From IMG/VR virus record IMGVR_UViG_3300033155_000057, positions 1 to 21,232 of that record: a DNA stretch of 21,232 bases; one strand, 5' to 3'. Below are positions 4,335 to 21,056 of this stretch, in pieces (the stretch's first letter is position 1; every line of letters starts with the position of its first letter). Both the position numbers and the translations under genes were made by a program. The stretch comes from a virus. The notes beneath the pieces were generated by a model. The model saw only the letters and a program-made list of their open reading frames with translations. It was not told where the DNA came from and made no database searches.

Positions 4335-5789
4335 ATGTCGATTGAAATAACTGAATTCGCTGATGTCTCTATCTCTGTATCTCCTGTTGGAGTGCAAGGT
4401 GGTAACTTTGGCATACTTGGTTTCCTTACTAAATTTTCTGATTTAGCAGATAATGTTATCACACCAGCTGAACGTGCTCGTGCTTACACAAGCCTTGCAA
4501 GTGTTGGTGGTGACTGGCAGACTGGCTCAGAAGTTTATAAGGCTGCTACTGCATTCTATGCACAGACTCCTACACCTACTGACTTCGTAGTTCTTATGAA
4601 TTATGATACCGCACAGGAAGCACAACTTGTTGGTGGTGGTCATGATATACTAACTGACTTAGTATCTATCACAACTGGTACTCTTGACTTAACAATTGAT
4701 GGTACTGCTGTCAATGTAACAGGTCTTGATTTCTCTGGTGCTGCTGACTTGGATGCTGTAGCAACTCTTATTACTACAAAGATTAATGCAGAGTACGTTG
4801 GTTCTGTTTGTACTAGTACTGCTTACGGTTTTGTAATAACTGGTGTAATTGCTAGTTCATCTGGTACAATAACTTTCGCAACTGGCACAGCTGCTGCTGC
4901 TCTCGGCTTAGAATCTTATCAGGCTAAAGTAAGTGACGGTGTTGATGTTGAAACTCCAATTGATTCATTAGCTGTTGCATTGACAATGGGTATTGAGTTT
5001 ATTGGTCTAGTTACTCACAAAGATTTCCGTGATGTCCTTGCTGGTTCTGAAGGTGAGACTACTTTAGAAATAGCTAACTGGGCAGAAGCTGCTAAGAAAA
5101 TATTCTGTAACACTTCAAATGATTTGTCTACACTTGGTACTTTGGAAACTTGTATCGCTTCACTTATTAAGCTGAACACACTACGCTTCAGCTTAACTAC
5201 GTTTAGCAAGAACCCTAACCTCTATCCTTCTGCATCTGTATTTGGTCGTGCTGCTTCTGTGAACTTCACAGCTATTGGTTCTACTATTACACTTAACCTT
5301 AAGACAATGCCTACAATCACAGCTGAAGATTTAACACCAGCTGAGTTCGGTAATCTTACTGCTAAGTACTGTTCAGCTGTTGTACAGATTGGTAAGTCAG
5401 TAAATGCTTACACAAGTTCTCGTAGGGGTTCAGGCTCATGGCTTGACACTACTCACGGTTTACTGTGGTTAGAGAATCGCTGTGAAGTTGATATGTTTAA
5501 CTTACTGTATCAGTCTCCTACTAAAGTTCCTTTCACACAGACAGGTATTAATATTACTGCTGCAACTCTTGACCGTTCACTACAGGCTGCTGTTCGCAAT
5601 GGCTTGTGTGCTCCAGGATTCTTGTCAGATGGTACTTACTTACCTGAAGGTTACATCATTGAGTCTTTGACTTTAGCTGAAGTGCCTAGTGGTGATAAGG
5701 GTAATCGTGTCTTCAATGGTCATTCATTTAAGATGGTTGGTGCTGGTGCGTTACATGAAGTAAACGTATCTGGCTCTTTCTCAGAGTAA
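4335..5789 (+). CDS. Contractile tail sheath protein (DUF3383 family)
   Basis: This 484-aa protein matches DUF3383 tail sheath proteins. It opens with a short N-terminal arm and a beta-rich VSISVSPVGVQGGNFG segment. An ITPAERARAYTSLASVGGDW block precedes a helix (EVYKAATAFYAQTP) and FVVLMNYDT. A Thr/Gly-rich protruding domain follows (about residues 115-200). Late come a conserved MPTITAEDLTPAEFGNLTAK block, a VNAYTSSRRGSGSWLDTTHG block and LENRCEVDMFNLLYQSPTK. It forms the contracting outer tube and shows that this phage is a myovirus. The start at ATG 4335 follows AGGAAC, 8 bases after the terminator gene. No frameshift or truncation is seen. Confidence 0.92.
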   Translation: MSIEITEFADVSISVSPVGVQGGNFGILGFLTKFSDLADNVITPAERARAYTSLASVGGDWQTGSEVYKAATAFYAQTPTPTDFVVLMNYDTAQEAQLVGGGHDILTDLVSITTGTLDLTIDGTAVNVTGLDFSGAADLDAVATLITTKINAEYVGSVCTSTAYGFVITGVIASSSGTITFATGTAAAALGLESYQAKVSDGVDVETPIDSLAVALTMGIEFIGLVTHKDFRDVLAGSEGETTLEIANWAEAAKKIFCNTSNDLSTLGTLETCIASLIKLNTLRFSLTTFSKNPNLYPSASVFGRAASVNFTAIGSTITLNLKTMPTITAEDLTPAEFGNLTAKYCSAVVQIGKSVNAYTSSRRGSGSWLDTTHGLLWLENRCEVDMFNLLYQSPTKVPFTQTGINITAATLDRSLQAAVRNGLCAPGFLSDGTYLPEGYIIESLTLAEVPSGDKGNRVFNGHSFKMVGAGALHEVNVSGSFSE

Positions 5790-6320: not shown

Positions 6321-6360
6321 TAGCCTGTCCCTTTAATTAGGGATGGGCTATTTTGTTTTG
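6321..6360 (+). terminator. Rho-independent terminator after the tail tube gene
   Basis: A 12-bp stem (6321-6332 with 6339-6350, two G-U pairs, loop TTAATT) is followed directly by TTTTGTTTT. It lies between tube and chaperone genes, where phages often reduce transcription so that sheath and tube are made in excess of chaperone and tape measure. The tail of the U-run runs into the RBS (GGAGA, 6360-6364) of the next gene. Confidence 0.88.
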
Positions 6361-6370
6361 GAGAATTATT

Positions 6371-6751
6371 ATGGCTGGATATGCAGCAAAATTAAAAGAC
6401 GGTAGAGAAATATACATTCCAAGTTGGCCCGTAGATGTGGCACTTGAGAATCTAGCCAGTGCTGGAAAGTACCTTGGCTCAGAAAATGTAATTAACATCT
6501 CAGAATTAAACATGGCTTCTGTAATAGTGGCTATAATGAAATCAGAAGTCCCTGCAAAGACAGCGGAACTGGTAGCACACTTTGTGTGTAGTGTACGTAT
6601 CGATGGTAGCAAAATAGAACCAGCCACAGTTAATACAATGTTCGCTGATGATTTAAAAGGTGTAGCAGAAATGTTTGCACATGTTATACACGCGCAGTAC
6701 GCAGATTTTTTCGAATCAGGCTTAGTAAAGGAACACTCCCCAGTCAAATAG
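6371..6751 (+). CDS. Tail assembly chaperone, 0-frame product (G-like)
   Basis: This 126-aa protein starts at ATG 6371, which has GGAGA six bases upstream. The in-frame ATG at 6353 sits inside the terminator U-run with no RBS and is rejected. The sequence begins AGYAAKLKDGREIYIPSWPV and has a helical body (VALENLASAGKYLG, ASVIVAIMKSEVPA, ELVAHFVCSVRIDG). This is the pattern of small chaperones that coat the tape measure protein before tube polymerisation. Such genes lie between tube and tape measure and typically produce a longer second product by ribosomal frameshifting, for which this gene carries a canonical site at 6706-6712. The 0-frame product ends 13 codons after that site. Confidence 0.82.
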   Translation: MAGYAAKLKDGREIYIPSWPVDVALENLASAGKYLGSENVINISELNMASVIVAIMKSEVPAKTAELVAHFVCSVRIDGSKIEPATVNTMFADDLKGVAEMFAHVIHAQYADFFESGLVKEHSPVK

Positions 6752-6980: not shown

Positions 6981-7002
6981 CTTATTCTTATTGGAGGTTA
7001 CT

Positions 7003-10000
7003 ATGCCTAAAGGTGATGGTTTTGGAGCAGGTCTTGGTGGACAAGGTGAAGATGATTACACCTACACTAACCAAGAGCACTCAGCTGGATATGAAGACGA
7101 ACTATCTGCTGAAGATTTAATAGCTACGCATAGTGCCTTAACTATGGGCAATGTTAATGCCGAAGTAACTGCTGAACAATTAATAGAAGCACACAAGGCA
7201 GAGCATGGTGATGCATATGGTACAGGTGGCGCAAGGTCTCCTGACCTACAGCTTCACAGGTTTGCTAGTATGGAACCTAGACAGATGCACCTTGCACATG
7301 AATGGCTGACCGGCAACTACGTCCACCAATCAAAGAGGGGTGAACAGATAGGTGAAGCCTTAGAAGAGTTCAGAAGCGTTACTGGAGTGTCTGATGCTGA
7401 AATGGCACAGAGATTCAAAAGCGAACTGAGAAGGACTGGCTACTTCGACTACACAGGCGAGGTTCCAAAGGATGCCACTTATACGGCTCCTAGTGGCTCA
7501 CAGGACACGAACATCGTTTTGAGTATGATGGGCAGGACAGCTAAGAATTATGAGGAGGCTGGAGCTGGTGGGAGACTTCTGGGCAATGTAGATGGACAGA
7601 ATGTAGGTGAATCTGCTGAAGGTCTTATAAGTGCTACCTCCTTCGTTAGGGAGTTTGCAGCAAAACTGATTGACCCTAGAGTTGCAGTTGGTGGAGTCAA
7701 GTATGGTTCTATCATGGGTGACTTAGAGACAGCTATCATTAACCAGATGGTAACAAGCACTGGGTATCGTGGACAGTCAAGTACTGTACCACTTCCCAAC
7801 GAGCTTCCCATTGATGGTTTAATACCCACTATCGGTAATGACCGTAATCCACAAGGTACTCCATTTACAAATTTAGGTTATGATGTTGCACTACAACAAG
7901 GTCAACTTGATGCAATGGGCGACTTAGCTTTTCTCAAGAAAGCAAACTATGCTGCAACTTACTTTCCTATTGATGGAACTAAGAAGGGTATGGGTGAGGA
8001 AGCTTGGGAGAAGAGAAAGGATATTGCAAGTGGTGACTTCACAGAGTTTAGTGAAATGTACTACGATGTTGCTCAAGTGTTTAAAGCTCAATTTGTTGAT
8101 GCCGGTGATGAGATTTATGGTAATGCTAAAACTTCACAGGCATGGAGAGCACAAAGTCAAGAGTATGATGCTCAAGCAGTAGTACGTGAAAGAATAAGTT
8201 TCTTAGGTTTAGCATGGGATGACTCTGCTGATACTCAAGGTATAGCACCAGAAACTCCTTATGACATTTTACACACTGGTAATAAATTACCTACGGACTT
8301 TAAAGATAAAACTTTTGCACCAGCTGGACAGAGAGTTACAGGTTCACAAAACATGAACTACGGTCACAATGTTGGCTTATCCTCTAGTGCAGATTTTGAA
8401 CAAAGAGTTGTAGACTTGATGTACCCTGAAGGTGTTCTTGGTTTAGATACTAAGACAGCTATGAATATGGATGATGCTATTGAATTAGTTTACCAAGGTG
8501 AAGAAGAACTGGACAGAAACCTTACAGGTCTGGTTACAGATAGGGATATTTATTTATCTGGTTCAAGGGATAGAAATATTCAGGGAAGTCAAGCATGGAA
8601 AGCAGAACGTAAAGGTACTGTGTCTGCATCTATGGCAAGCTTACTAAGTTCAAAAGATGGTATTGCTAAAATGGCTACCAATCTTGCGAGACAAGGTTTC
8701 AACTATGTACCTCAGTATGGTGCAGATGGTGGCTTCCAAGAGTTTGGCTTTACTGGTACGGATGCATCTGCAAAAGGTAACAGGAGAGAGAAGGCAACTA
8801 AAGAAGCTTTCCTTGCAACTGTTGGCTCTAACTTAAACTATGAAGAAGCTTTCTTTGAAACAAATAAGGACTTGCCCGGATTGGGTGCTTCACCTGATGG
8901 AAGATTGTTTAACCCTGATGGTTCATCGGCTGGCTTGTTAGAGCTAAAAACTTTACAGGACTCAACCTACAAAGGTTCAACTAAAAAGTACTACGACCAG
9001 ATGCAATTGCAAATGGCTGTCACTGGTGAGAAGCAAGTACACTTCTTTGCGCGTAACCAATATGGTGAAGCTGGTGACTACGAATATAACGTAGTTGAAT
9101 ACGATGCTGAAAGAGCTGAAGAGTTAATTGAAATGGCTAATACCGCACAGGAAATATCTGGTGGTATAACAACTAGAAAGGAGATGAATCAATTGCAAAG
9201 TATAATTCAAGCAAACAAAAGTAAAAGACGTTCATCTTCACAACCTGCTGTTGAAGGAACTACGTTTGATGATAAACAAGTAGATGAAACTGGAGAGGAA
9301 GTTGCAGCATTTAAAGCAACACCTGCTGAGTCATCTAAAGGTAAGAGTGAAGGTAAAACAATACTTGATAAGATGCTTAGTAGCAAAACTACTGATGCCT
9401 CACAACCTGACCAAGAAGAGTTAAGTCTGAAGAAGATTGAAGCTAGTCTTAAAGAAACACAACAGAAACAGAAAGGTACTGTTGGTATTAGCGCAAGTGG
9501 TAAGAGTCATGATGACCCACTAAATGCAAGTACTGGTGCACTGGCTGACATGCTTCGTAAAGAAGAACAGCAAGAGCTTGCCAAAGCTGCTAAGGGTGGT
9601 GGTGATGGTAAAGGTGTAGAAGCTAATGAGAATTTAGCTGAGTCTTCTTTCCATGCTGCTAAGATGATAAATCACTTTGCTGCTGTAGCTCAGAAAGCTG
9701 CATCGATACTTAAAGGTATTGGTGGTGGTCTTACTGGTGCAACTGAAGATGTACTTGACGAAGGCAGACTTGCTGCTCGTGTTGGTATGACTGCTGAAGA
9801 ACTTCGTGGTACTCGCGTAACACTTAGGGAAGCACAACTTACAGACAAGCAAATAAACGAAGTAGTTTCTGGTGCTGGCGAATTAGTGTCAACATTAGAT
9901 ACTGACTTAGGTGTTGCCGGTTTCGTTGAAAGTACTATTGTTCCTTTACATGCACTCAAAGCTAAACATCCTGAGTTAACTGACATGCCTATTGGTGATG

Positions 10001-10701
10001 TCACTGACTGGCAAGGACTTGATAACCAAGGCGTACAAGCTAAGGTTCAGGGTATGATGAGGGGTCTTACTCCAGCACTAAGAAAAGCTGTTGGCGATAG
10101 ACTACCTGCTGGTATTAGGGAATTAGCATTTGCTGCTGATGTAACAACTGGTGAGAAACTCAATGGTGCTATCGATAGTGAAATAGATATTGCTGGTGGC
10201 AGAAGAGTAGCTGGTGGTGCATATGAAGTTCAACGACTAGCTCAAGTAGTAAACGAAAGAGCTGCGACTACAACAAGAGCTGCTGGTATACTTGGTGAGA
10301 CCGCTACAACAATTGGAGATAACTTCAGTGTAGAAGGACTTGTAAGTTTCGGTACTAAGTTGCTTGCCATTGGTGGTGAAGAGGCTGCCATAGGTGCTGC
10401 TAAGTATGTAGGTGGTGGTGATATACACCAAGTTGCTAATCCTGATAGGATAGAGGCACTTAAACCTTCACAGGCAATAATGCAAACCTCCAAAGGTTCT
10501 ACTAACTTTGATAAGTATGATTCACATAAAACAAGTTTACCTTCAGCTGGAATTGGCCCGATACAATCTGGTGCTGAATCTAAAGAAGATGCTAAGATAA
10601 ACAATGTTCAGAACTTTGAAGTCAAGGTAACTCTTGGTGAGAAGGATGAAGTTGAAATTATTGAAGATGGTGAAACTAAACTTATGACAACAGGAGACTA
10701 A
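7003..10701 (+). CDS. Tape-measure-position protein with embedded lambda-exonuclease/YqaJ-type nuclease domain
   Basis: This is a 1232-aa protein. ATG 7003 is preferred because GGAGG lies 5 bases upstream; the TTG at 6991 overlaps that RBS. Its place between the frameshifted chaperone and the hub is that of the tape measure, and it is the only large gene there. Residues ~525-715 form a complete PD-(D/E)XK exonuclease of the lambda Exo/YqaJ type: an N-terminal SQAWKAERKGTVSAS motif, GNRRE (G592, E596), ASPDG (D632), LLELKT (E647, K649), and YYDQMQLQMAVTG (Q666, Q668, Q670) followed by VHFFARNQYG. Residues ~740-860 are low-complexity and charged, probably a flexible linker. The C-terminal ~370 residues are Ala/Gly-rich and helical. 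I see no clear transmembrane segment, which is unusual for a tape measure. The first ~520 residues are not recognised. It probably sets tail length and may carry a nuclease into the cell; the role is inference. Confidence 0.8.
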   Translation: MPKGDGFGAGLGGQGEDDYTYTNQEHSAGYEDELSAEDLIATHSALTMGNVNAEVTAEQLIEAHKAEHGDAYGTGGARSPDLQLHRFASMEPRQMHLAHEWLTGNYVHQSKRGEQIGEALEEFRSVTGVSDAEMAQRFKSELRRTGYFDYTGEVPKDATYTAPSGSQDTNIVLSMMGRTAKNYEEAGAGGRLLGNVDGQNVGESAEGLISATSFVREFAAKLIDPRVAVGGVKYGSIMGDLETAIINQMVTSTGYRGQSSTVPLPNELPIDGLIPTIGNDRNPQGTPFTNLGYDVALQQGQLDAMGDLAFLKKANYAATYFPIDGTKKGMGEEAWEKRKDIASGDFTEFSEMYYDVAQVFKAQFVDAGDEIYGNAKTSQAWRAQSQEYDAQAVVRERISFLGLAWDDSADTQGIAPETPYDILHTGNKLPTDFKDKTFAPAGQRVTGSQNMNYGHNVGLSSSADFEQRVVDLMYPEGVLGLDTKTAMNMDDAIELVYQGEEELDRNLTGLVTDRDIYLSGSRDRNIQGSQAWKAERKGTVSASMASLLSSKDGIAKMATNLARQGFNYVPQYGADGGFQEFGFTGTDASAKGNRREKATKEAFLATVGSNLNYEEAFFETNKDLPGLGASPDGRLFNPDGSSAGLLELKTLQDSTYKGSTKKYYDQMQLQMAVTGEKQVHFFARNQYGEAGDYEYNVVEYDAERAEELIEMANTAQEISGGITTRKEMNQLQSIIQANKSKRRSSSQPAVEGTTFDDKQVDETGEEVAAFKATPAESSKGKSEGKTILDKMLSSKTTDASQPDQEELSLKKIEASLKETQQKQKGTVGISASGKSHDDPLNASTGALADMLRKEEQQELAKAAKGGGDGKGVEANENLAESSFHAAKMINHFAAVAQKAASILKGIGGGLTGATEDVLDEGRLAARVGMTAEELRGTRVTLREAQLTDKQINEVVSGAGELVSTLDTDLGVAGFVESTIVPLHALKAKHPELTDMPIGDVTDWQGLDNQGVQAKVQGMMRGLTPALRKAVGDRLPAGIRELAFAADVTTGEKLNGAIDSEIDIAGGRRVAGGAYEVQRLAQVVNERAATTTRAAGILGETATTIGDNFSVEGLVSFGTKLLAIGGEEAAIGAAKYVGGGDIHQVANPDRIEALKPSQAIMQTSKGSTNFDKYDSHKTSLPSAGIGPIQSGAESKEDAKINNVQNFEVKVTLGEKDEVEIIEDGETKLMTTGD

Positions 10702-10703
10702 CT

Positions 10704-11474
10704 ATGGCTATGATAAAGTTCGGGCAGTATGTTAGAATCGAAGTTGTCTCAAAAGATAAAGCTGAGAAGTTTACATCGGATAGTTTAAGGATAGACTTTG
10801 ACATAAGGAATGTGTCAGAGTTTGTCAGAGCTAAGATTGATATTTATAATCTTACTTCCGAGACAGCTGGTGCTATAATGAATGGTGAAAACTATGTGTC
10901 TATTATTACTTCCTTGCATGGAGGCGAGGAGGTTACTATAGCTAGTAATCTTTATATTAGTAATGCAGTAAATGAAACTAAGTTACCAAACAACATTACT
11001 TCTTTATTTTGTTTCTCCTCTGTAAAGAAATCCTTTTTAGAATTTCAATTAAAGGATGTGCAGGTTAAGAACGCATCACTAAAGAATTGCATAGATGCAG
11101 TTGTGGCAAAATCAAAGTTCGAAGGAAATGTTCTATACAGACAATTTCCTGAAGGCTGGATAAGTAAAGCACCAGTTAAACCTGTTGCTAAACTAGAAGG
11201 TTCTGTGCAGTCATGTTTAAGAATTCTTGGTAATGAGTATAAGTACAACTACTACATTGATGGGGACAACTTAGTGCTGATGCATAAAGTAGAACCGGAG
11301 AATGAAAGTGCTACAACATTAAATAAAGATGAGCCTGATGTTAAACTGTCTACAGATAACATGAGGTCAAATCCTAAACTTGGGCCAGCTACTATTAGCT
11401 TAGAGTCTAACCTTGACTACTATATCAGGTTACTACAGATACCAAGTGTACCAGACAGTGCACAGAGGTTCTAA
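10704..11474 (+). CDS. Baseplate hub protein (gp27/XkdQ-like), reading frame as it stands
   Basis: This 256-aa protein opens with a strand-rich domain (IKFGQYVRIEVVSKDKAEKF, then RIDFDIRNVSEFVRAKIDIY and LTSETAGAI), typical of phage hub proteins. A helical middle (LKNCIDAVVAKSKF), LEGSVQSCLRILGNEYKYNY and GDNLVLM follow. Near the end it has NPKLGPATISLES, like the 'NP.L.PG..V.L.S' strand before the hub's final domain. The family then expects a 'G.Y.V....H.G....W.T' motif. In this frame that motif is absent and the sequence ends IPSVPDSAQRF, but it is present in the +1 frame. The gene therefore looks interrupted by one base or read by frameshift; the full product would be about 288 aa. It would form the central hub between tape measure and spike. 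Confidence 0.72.
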   Translation: MAMIKFGQYVRIEVVSKDKAEKFTSDSLRIDFDIRNVSEFVRAKIDIYNLTSETAGAIMNGENYVSIITSLHGGEEVTIASNLYISNAVNETKLPNNITSLFCFSSVKKSFLEFQLKDVQVKNASLKNCIDAVVAKSKFEGNVLYRQFPEGWISKAPVKPVAKLEGSVQSCLRILGNEYKYNYYIDGDNLVLMHKVEPENESATTLNKDEPDVKLSTDNMRSNPKLGPATISLESNLDYYIRLLQIPSVPDSAQRF

Positions 11475-18403: not shown

Positions 18404-18703
18404 ATGTTCTTGTATCATGGCACAACTAAGCTTAATGCTGAATGTGTTATTGATTATCCATTAGCTAAGGCATCAACGAATGGCTTTGGCTTCTACTTAA
18501 CCAATGACATTGAAGTAGCAAGACAATACGGTTCAAGTGTTGTTTGTTATGAAGTTAGCAATGACTTCACTTGTCAACTTGTTCGACCTTTCAACTATGA
18601 TGAAGAGAAGTCATATGATGGAAGACTTGAGTTTGTTCTTTCTCAACAGGAAGCAGACAAACTTGTTCTTAACTATTCTATTAACTCAACTATAATCCAT
18701 TAG
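18404..18703 (+). CDS. Small ADP-ribosyltransferase-like protein
   Basis: This 99-aa protein begins FLYHGTTKLNA (H5), the first strand of ADP-ribosyltransferase folds in which the His binds NAD. It continues with NGFGFYLTNDIEVARQYGSS, the 'GFY(L)T....A..(Y/W)' strand-helix seen in DUF3990, PARP-like and related families (Y31). A late acidic residue in RLEFVLS (E76) could be the third member of an H-Y-E triad. It is shorter than most ADP-ribosyltransferases, so it may be a minimal or degenerate version. AGGAG at 18391-18395 supports the start at ATG 18404. By analogy with T4 Alt/Mod it could modify host RNA polymerase or another host factor; the target is unknown. A non-enzymatic relative of the fold cannot be excluded. 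Confidence 0.6.
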   Translation: MFLYHGTTKLNAECVIDYPLAKASTNGFGFYLTNDIEVARQYGSSVVCYEVSNDFTCQLVRPFNYDEEKSYDGRLEFVLSQQEADKLVLNYSINSTIIH

Positions 18704-19109: not shown

Positions 19110-21056
19110 ATGAAAGCAATACACGAAGTACTATCTGAAGGCAACATCAACAAGTCTGCTCTACTGTCTACAATGGCAAGTGAGCTGTTTCAGAACAATC
19201 TCAACCCACGTATATCACTGATTACTGCTACGGCATACATTGGTGCTATTGAGTACTTGGATGATGAGGAGATGTTCATTGAAGCATTCGTTGATGGTCT
19301 GGAAGTGACATCACTGAGCATAACAGGTATCGAAGCAGAAGACATGCCTGATGATGTGATGGATACTACATGTATCATAGCTGCACTACAAGGTGCTAAC
19401 TACCTAACGGAAGAACACAAGGTAGGTGAAAGATTGATTGAACTGATGGAATTGCGCTCAGAGGCGTACTTACCAGCTTTGGCAGTCGATGGGGTCGAAA
19501 GAAGGTTTGGGTATGCACCAACACAATACTCAGCACTGTTCAAGGAAGCAATTCATGCTCTGGAGGACACTAAGTACACTGTAGATGATAGAATGCTATC
19601 AATCGCTTTACAGGTGCTTGCTGCTTCCGGTAAAGATGACGAGGAAGGTTATGTGCTACGTGGTTGTGAGAAGATGGACAGCAATGATGCGTATGTGAGT
19701 GAGTTCAAGGGTGACAGACGAGGTAGGATGTATCAAGCTTCATGTCATGGGCCAAATGGACAGGCTTCAGACCGTTCAAGAGCCTTGATGGACTTGTATG
19801 GTGTGCCAAGGGATTATGATGTTATGACAGCTCTTGACCACTTACGTCATGAAATGGCTGACATGGTATCTGTTGAGGGTGGCAAGGAGCGTAGACAGTT
19901 ACTTGTTGCTGCAACTGAGCATCCGGTAGAGTTCATACTCAAACATCAAGGTAAGGAGCATGGTGTTAGTAAGCCTTGGTCATTTGTGAAGGCAGCTAAG
20001 ATATTCTTGGACTTAGTAGAGTATCGTGATGCTGGAACAGATGGTAGACAGGTAGAGAAGCCTTACATAGGCATGGCATTTGGCTTAGATGCTAAGTGTT
20101 CTGGGCCTCAGTTGGGTGCTCTGATGGTAGGAGATGGTGATTTAGCTGCTGCTTGTGGGTTTAGCATGAAGGAGATAGATGATGCCTACATTCGTGCAAT
20201 AGGCGAGTGTGATAAGGCTGGATTTCACAATCTAACCAGAAATGACATCAAGAAGCCTTTCATGGGTATCTTCTATGGTCAAGGTAAGGATGCATTCATG
20301 CTACCTGATGATATGAGTGTTGCATTATGGACAAGCATACATGGTGAGACCATCATAGGTAACAGTAAGAGAGCTGAAGAGTTCCACAAGGCAGTAACTG
20401 CATCGTTCGGTGCTAAGATGATTGCAGTAAGGGAAGCAATGAGGTCTTACATGGGTAAGATTGAAGGCAAGGTTAGTCACTACTTACCTGATGGATTTAG
20501 GGTAGCAATGAACTATAAGATGAAAGTAAACATCTTGGGTGAATTGATGGAGTATGACACTCCTAAGTTTGATGTTAGACTAAGAAACAACGTAGAAGCG
20601 TATAAATTCATCAATATGCAGATGAACACCAAGGAAGTACATACTGGTGACTTTGCAAGGAATGGCTTCGTTAACATGGTTCAGGGAGTGGATGGACTGA
20701 TTGCAAGGCTGATTGTAGTACATCTTAAGAGATTAGGTGCACAACACATCATTGCTGTCCATGATTGCTTCCGAGTCAACGTAAAGGACATGGAGTTGCT
20801 AAAGGCTGCTATTAAAGAGGCTTATAGGGATTTATTCGGTAGCTACATAAACACAGCTACTGAGGACTTACCGAAGGGTCAGGACATACTAGGCTTGTAC
20901 TTTGATGGTATTAACGACCAACTGAAGAATATTGATGATGCTATTGATATTAGTCAGTTCTTCACCAGTGGTAAGCGTAGACTTCAGAAGATACATGGTG
21001 AGAAGCTTAACCATCTCATCAGTGCTCTTGGAACTACATACTACTTTGATAAATAG
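19110..21056 (+). CDS. Single-subunit DNA-directed RNA polymerase (T7-like, compact)
   Basis: This 648-aa protein has the hallmark motifs of T7-type RNA polymerases. GDRRGRMYQASCHGPNGQ (residues 201-218) matches T7 DWRGRVY. Motif A is GLDAKCSGPQLGALMVGD with D327 (T7 D537). Motif B is TRNDIKKPFMGIFYG with R377, K381 and Y389 (T7 R627, K631, Y639, with identical spacing). Motif C is VHDCFRV with H551 and D552 (T7 H811, D812). All catalytic residues are present. It is about 235 residues shorter than T7 polymerase, mainly before motif A and between A and B, so the promoter-binding N-terminal domain is reduced. It would transcribe phage genes from phage-specific promoters, independent of host polymerase. 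ATG 19110 has GGAG 8 bases upstream. Confidence 0.93.
   Translation: MKAIHEVLSEGNINKSALLSTMASELFQNNLNPRISLITATAYIGAIEYLDDEEMFIEAFVDGLEVTSLSITGIEAEDMPDDVMDTTCIIAALQGANYLTEEHKVGERLIELMELRSEAYLPALAVDGVERRFGYAPTQYSALFKEAIHALEDTKYTVDDRMLSIALQVLAASGKDDEEGYVLRGCEKMDSNDAYVSEFKGDRRGRMYQASCHGPNGQASDRSRALMDLYGVPRDYDVMTALDHLRHEMADMVSVEGGKERRQLLVAATEHPVEFILKHQGKEHGVSKPWSFVKAAKIFLDLVEYRDAGTDGRQVEKPYIGMAFGLDAKCSGPQLGALMVGDGDLAAACGFSMKEIDDAYIRAIGECDKAGFHNLTRNDIKKPFMGIFYGQGKDAFMLPDDMSVALWTSIHGETIIGNSKRAEEFHKAVTASFGAKMIAVREAMRSYMGKIEGKVSHYLPDGFRVAMNYKMKVNILGELMEYDTPKFDVRLRNNVEAYKFINMQMNTKEVHTGDFARNGFVNMVQGVDGLIARLIVVHLKRLGAQHIIAVHDCFRVNVKDMELLKAAIKEAYRDLFGSYINTATEDLPKGQDILGLYFDGINDQLKNIDDAIDISQFFTSGKRRLQKIHGEKLNHLISALGTTYYFDK

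Follow-up and report, generated by a model that had tools for sequence, protein, structure and literature searches.

The middle of the longest tail protein encoded in the window, by which we mean the whole stretch of 21,232 bases analysed here, is almost certainly a real lambda-Exo-type nuclease that has been kept by selection within the tape-measure-position protein. The window is an IMG/VR virus record and contains a head-tail module of a contractile-tailed phage. The preliminary description of this DNA knew of no described case of the arrangement, which is, however, not a one-off: the same fusion is found family-wide in the Chaseviridae and in a large uncultured sister group.

As ordered by PHROG matches, the tail genes of the window run from sheath through tube-type protein, tail chaperone and 1232-aa ORF to baseplate hub (Table 1), and the 1232-aa ORF between chaperone and hub is the longest of them. 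Its start codon is the ATG at 7003, which has GGAGG upstream. The same frame also opens at TTG 6991 (6991-10701, 1236 aa); we prefer the 1232-aa form because GGAGG precedes ATG 7003, while TTG 6991 overlaps this ribosome-binding site. Start site and PHROG neighbours thus bear out the length and the position between chaperone and hub that were originally proposed. Searches of Pfam and PHROG returned no tape-measure match for the 1232-aa protein, Pfam recognized a single domain in it, and comparisons of a long model with gpH-type proteins by Foldseek gave weak matches (E about 0.02). The near-full-length AlphaFold model (pLDDT 52.6) is helical in its C-terminal half and, outside the nuclease, too poor for naming further domains. 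No membrane segment common to all was found, the threshold being unmet in the window protein and in the Chaseviridae proteins tested; relatives within the lineage carry glycine-rich hydrophobic segments near the tape-measure C-terminus. The best explanation is that a myovirus akin to the Chaseviridae uses the 1232-aa protein as its tape measure; the kinship is seen in sheath homology (31-40% identity between the window and Chaseviridae sheaths) and in a common order of tail genes. Elsewhere in the window, a 99-aa ORF that starts MFLYHGT (18404-18703, + strand) resembles DUF3990 and ART-PolyVal weakly, at scores under the cut-off (E about 2e-4 to 3e-4), the latter being an ADP-ribosyltransferase found in polyvalent proteins; PADLOC gave no useful match.

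Table 1. Features of the window discussed in the text (residues in the 1232-aa numbering).
Feature	Position	Strand	Remarks
Tail sheath	4335..5789	+	phrog_205, E=3e-89; served to find relatives
Tail assembly chaperone	6353..6751	+	phrog_11820, E=1.8e-14
Tape-measure-position protein	7003..10701	+	1232 aa; between chaperone and hub, same place in Chaseviridae
Second low-confidence stretch, before nuclease	about 8095-8580	+	from near-full-length model
Lambda-Exo/YqaJ nuclease domain	8587..9186	+	PF09588 match 8596-9030, E=3.7e-9
Active-site Glu of GNRRE, E596	8788..8790	+	Glu in 56/57 aligned relatives, one gap
Active-site Asp of SPDG, D632	8896..8898	+	Asp in 55/57 aligned relatives, two gaps
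E-L-K motif, E647 and K649	8941..8949	+	E-x-K in 20/20 domains inspected
Q-x-Q-x-Q helix, Q666, Q668 and Q670	8998..9012	+	invariant in A1 and A2
Predicted disordered linker after nuclease, ends approximate	9187..9750	+	pLDDT under 50; 10-23% identity, lowest among relatives
Baseplate hub	10704..11474	+	phrog_196, E=5e-11

Several lines of evidence identify the nuclease. The match to the YqaJ family PF09588 scores 37.5 bits against a curated cut-off of 22 (residues 536-680 in the 1236-aa numbering), the RecE-like exonuclease phrog_434 matches with E=2.5e-12, and a phmmer search of the PDB gave LHK-Exo (E=9e-5) as the sole meaningful sequence match. An AlphaFold model of residues 518-732, built with 27 sequences, has a mean pLDDT of 84.8 and a pTM of 0.83. 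The nine best chains retrieved with this model by Foldseek are all lambda Exo or LHK-Exo, and VIA places LHK-Exo (Z 19.6, rmsd 2.7, 179 residues aligned) and lambda Exo (Z 18.7-19.2) ahead of other PD-(D/E)XK nucleases, which follow at Z 15 and below. The five motifs picked out in the preliminary description all lie where it had placed them and in the same order, namely SQAWKAERKGTVSAS at 8587, GNRRE at 8776, ASPDG at 8887, LLELKT at 8935 and YYDQMQLQMAVTG at 8989. Its proposal of a complete lambda-Exo/YqaJ domain with named catalytic residues is likewise upheld by the profile match and by conservation in relatives, and the predicted structure has the lambda-Exo fold.

The equivalence of the catalytic residues rests on the fold match together with the alignment, and by this comparison of sequences the active-site residues are near-invariant across the group. 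Further sequences flagged for the E-x-K motif proved either to be misaligned, with the motif visible, or to be cut at contig ends or frame breaks, and active-site conservation in the aligned domains rules out catalytic decay as a general state. Within the window lineage, no other part of the protein is as well conserved as the nuclease (31-41% identity, vs about 7-26% elsewhere), and for those Chaseviridae pairs where the ratio is computable, dN/dS of the nuclease is 0.01-0.10.

The preliminary description had also raised the prospect of a chimeric join. The window is given as a single metagenomic contig, which would be compatible with an assembly chimera or a mis-annotated gene fusion. However, contig L001, from another IMG/VR record, agrees with the window at 99.91% over 11,119 bp (10 mismatches) and spans the whole gene, and the fusion recurs in dozens of contigs of independent origin as well as in numerous cultured isolates, rendering an artefact of this kind vanishingly improbable.

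Uncultured relatives of the window were found through the sheath, with about 54-73% identity to the window sheath. Their tape-measure-position ORF, when complete, is usually 1137-1723 aa long, and the nuclease domain is present in every one of the non-redundant clusters whose tape-measure ORF is readable far enough (45/45); in the four clusters that do not show it (L083, L139, L145 and L196), the tape measure is cut off by the contig end. L089 seemed to be a domain-less relative by full-length blastp, a reading ruled out by domain-level blastp, which finds the nuclease with E=3e-27. A search for more relatives through the baseplate wedge had no finds, a search of genome contigs produced one contig that is itself truncated, and tblastn of the full-length window protein against the phage collection found no phage, the protein being too divergent. 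Standalone relatives of the nuclease, of about 190-224 aa, are more distant and about 30% identical. In one relative (G001/L082, IMGVR_UViG_3300001749_000003) the two ends of the contig share a 2,688-bp overlap (99.78% identity), so that the record, although classed linear, has the appearance of a complete genome, about 53.8 kb long once the overlap is removed. Chaseviridae, for comparison, have genomes of 52-56 kb with a single-subunit RNA polymerase and infect gammaproteobacteria. Relative G001 encodes, elsewhere, a 614-aa ORF that matches RNA polymerase (phrog_414), and in the window a 648-aa ORF (19110-21056, + strand) has a weak, below-cut-off match to the single-subunit RNA polymerase family PF00940 (E=0.002); window-type phages may carry two polymerase genes or a split one.

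Among cultured phages, a profile of the window lineage hits the tape-measure-position proteins of Myduc, Fifi44, ST32, LA93P2, Spp001, ZPAH14 and 4HA13, as well as that of the related Aeromonas phage PAGF2_10BT, and most of these Chaseviridae proteins also score above the Pfam cut-off for YqaJ. The VPs20 protein falls just below that cut-off and is unreported by the lineage profile; it retains the D and E-x-K residues and is a clear relative of the Aeromonas phage proteins. By these sequence criteria, both subfamilies of the Chaseviridae carry the nuclease in the tape-measure-position protein. Profile-profile comparisons align the window lineage with the Nefertitivirinae from the nuclease well into the C-terminal half (E=4e-8), the window lineage with the Cleopatravirinae in the nuclease region only (E=1e-11), and the two subfamilies with each other in the C-terminal half (E=1e-12). 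This chain of three links points to a single ancestral architecture and not to insertions on several occasions, and hence that a nuclease in the tape measure may be the ancestral state for the Chaseviridae and their uncultured sister group. The nuclease is missing from the tape measures of five myophages used as an outgroup (BgManors32, PAK_P1, a Rosemountvirus, a Jedunavirus and Vibrio phage 1.263.B). In the Cleopatravirinae, the same polypeptide ends in a C-terminal SLT transglycosylase, giving two domains, YqaJ and SLT, whereas a Pfam search found no match to the transglycosylase in the window protein. The host range of the family extends to E. coli K-12, as flopper grows on MG1655.

Existing labels for these proteins are heterogeneous. 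ST32 gp66 (L116 12545-16267) and its homologs are variously called tail fiber, putative endonuclease, tape measure and virion structural protein; ZPAH14 gp34 and the LA93P2 protein are annotated 'exonuclease', the former with a yqaJ note, and the PHROG names include 'exonuclease' (phrog_149) and 'virion structural protein' (phrog_19855). The public record of Shewanella phage Spp001 has two ORFs in place of a single tape-measure-position gene (L114 6112-9572), possibly through a frameshift or a sequencing error. Comparison of closely related tape measures reveals a further feature. Those of ST32 and phiEcoM-GJ1 (L116 and L203) share 88-100% identity across most of residues 1-160 and 720-1000, vs 28-75% across residues about 160-710, where the nuclease is 61% identical and the catalytic motifs are kept; ST32 and 4HA13 are more distant overall, yet their nucleases are 83% identical. 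Judging from these identities, the block of residues about 160-710 seems to have been swapped as a whole between ST32/GJ1-type tape measures. An arms race or a host-specific entry factor might lie behind such exchange, which alone favours no role.

In published LC-MS/MS of 4HA13 virions, the tape measure is the second protein listed, the capsid protein being the first (PMC9699118), and this tape measure carries the nuclease domain. In lambda, a fusion of an enzyme with the inner-membrane protein ManZ labels the tape measure as injection proceeds (PMC13190303), and in 80alpha three tape-measure copies are found close to a DNA end that is blunt and 5'-phosphorylated (PMC11661146). The transglycosylase in the Cleopatravirinae polypeptide indicates a protein that acts on the cell envelope during entry, and taken together these data make delivery of the nuclease into the cell plausible. 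Nuclease activity, cytoplasmic delivery, oligomeric state and substrate are what we infer in the model that follows. At something short of even confidence, we favour a catalytic, tail-delivered exonuclease that works at the site of DNA entry and most likely acts on the incoming genome's own ends.

According to this model, an intact lambda-Exo-type PD-(D/E)XK exonuclease would be stored inside the tail as the middle part of the tape measure, which would be ejected either before the genome or together with it and set free on the inner side of the membrane channel. Long flexible linkers would permit the nuclease to fold at the channel and possibly to trimerise, since lambda Exo is a trimeric ring and some phages have three tape-measure copies. 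The nearest substrate would be the phage's own blunt, 5'-phosphorylated genome ends, whose limited 5'-to-3' trimming would generate long 3' tails; within terminal repeats, these tails could anneal to form a circular genome. RecBCD prefers near-blunt ends, and the 3'-tailed ends would be poor substrates for RecBCD-type nucleases before any phage gene is expressed. The full proposal, that the family and the uncultured clade resect their own incoming ends prior to gene expression and do so for circularisation via repeats, denial of ends to RecBCD, or both, is more doubtful than the general reading.

Lambda-type exonucleases need a DNA end, and an enzyme that depends on ends and comes in with a linear genome is better suited to own-end processing than to an attack on circular host DNA. 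Further support for processing of the phage's own ends comes from the family-wide occurrence and strong conservation of the domain, from the detection of the domain-bearing tape measure in 4HA13 virions, from the finding of no second YqaJ in the two longest related records, and from the linear genomes of the Chaseviridae, which bear terminal repeats of about 3 kb (PMC12842549), 3120 bp in 4HA13 (PMC9699118). Other observations count against it. Four related records, two of which approach full genome length, yielded no RecT, ERF or Rad52 annealase, so some other protein would have to carry out annealing, and the same phages (ST32 and 4HA13 among them) encode a separate gp6/FEN-type 5'-3' exonuclease, so end resection would not be unique to the tape-measure nuclease. 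The model is weakened, too, by the harm that a processive exonuclease, if unrestrained, could do to the phage's own DNA. Finally, annealing of terminal repeats draws on the genome ends of the Chaseviridae, and those of the window lineage may differ.

Other roles can be envisioned for a nuclease in this location. It could serve as an offensive or clearing effector that degrades the host chromosome, plasmids or the DNA of competing phages at broken or linear ends during the first few minutes after infection, which we consider unlikely. That large phage proteins carry ejected enzymatic domains is a recurrent theme, exemplified by the polyvalent proteins (PMC5512222). The exchanged GJ1/ST32 block, with its catalytic motifs kept, resembles an arms-race module, but it also includes non-nuclease sequence, and no self/non-self marker was found. 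Moreover, the known biochemistry of the lambda-Exo fold is end-dependent, whereas the host chromosome and plasmids are circular.

It is quite improbable that the nuclease acts solely in virion morphogenesis, for example to trim the end with which the DNA enters the tail or to check head-tail joining, with no role in the cell. The DNA end of 80alpha does lie close to the tape measure N-terminus (PMC11661146), and T4 gp4 is a head-completion nuclease needed for packaging (PMC7824862); however, the nuclease described here sits mid-protein between low-confidence, probably disordered stretches, the tail tube is generally thought too narrow for a folded copy, and tape measures normally enter tails before the DNA. 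We assign a very low probability to the domain being a structural fossil, that is, a spacer or DNA-binding module without catalysis. Standalone exonucleases of the same genomes could cover recombination, but the E, D and E-x-K residues are kept across three divergent groups in which other tape-measure sequence is barely alignable.

Tape measures are usually seen as passive rulers, at most with a cell-wall enzyme, and a conserved exonuclease in one, throughout a cultured phage family, implies that DNA processing is delivered at entry, before phage gene expression. If true, this would add a step to genome entry and would be relevant to the survival of linear phage genomes in the face of host exonucleases. 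Recognition of the arrangement would also unify proteins now named exonuclease, endonuclease, tail fiber or tape measure. As for its novelty, which the preliminary description had raised, our literature search found no description of a fusion between a tape measure and YqaJ or another exonuclease, with passing mention possible in the Y2 and phiEcoM-GJ1 genome papers; nevertheless, some databases already label the protein as exonuclease or yqaJ. A nuclease in the tape measure is unmentioned in the ICTV Chaseviridae profile (PMC12842549), and the main text of the polyvalent-protein survey makes no mention of YqaJ or tape measures (PMC5512222). Thus, the parts are known and have been labelled piecemeal, and it appears that the tail-embedded, family-wide arrangement is undescribed in the searchable literature.

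In profile, fold (Z 18.7-19.6) and active-site motifs, the window domain resembles the lambda Exo, LHK-Exo and YqaJ exonucleases (PF09588). These enzymes are normally standalone proteins of about 200-230 aa, produced early and with an annealase gene nearby, whereas the window-type nuclease forms one domain of a structural tail protein that is late and about 1140-1720 aa long. The arrangement is likewise unlike the exonuclease-annealase pair of phage SynExo systems, given the RecT/ERF/Rad52 results for the four relatives. The closest counterparts are the tape-measure-position proteins of the Chaseviridae (ZPAH14 gp34, 4HA13_0067 and ST32 gp66), which share both position and domain with the window protein. 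Tape measures bearing a transglycosylase or a peptidase similarly place a catalytic domain in a tail protein; the known examples act on peptidoglycan, whereas the window domain is a DNA nuclease. Polyvalent ejected proteins (Iyer 2017) are also large and multidomain, and are thought to be delivered with DNA. With respect to incoming genome ends, a further parallel may lie in proteins of a different kind. T4 gp2 and Mu gpN are ejected protectors of genome ends, and the window-type nuclease would, like them, operate on incoming ends before gene expression; they bind those ends, whereas the window-type nuclease would cut them.
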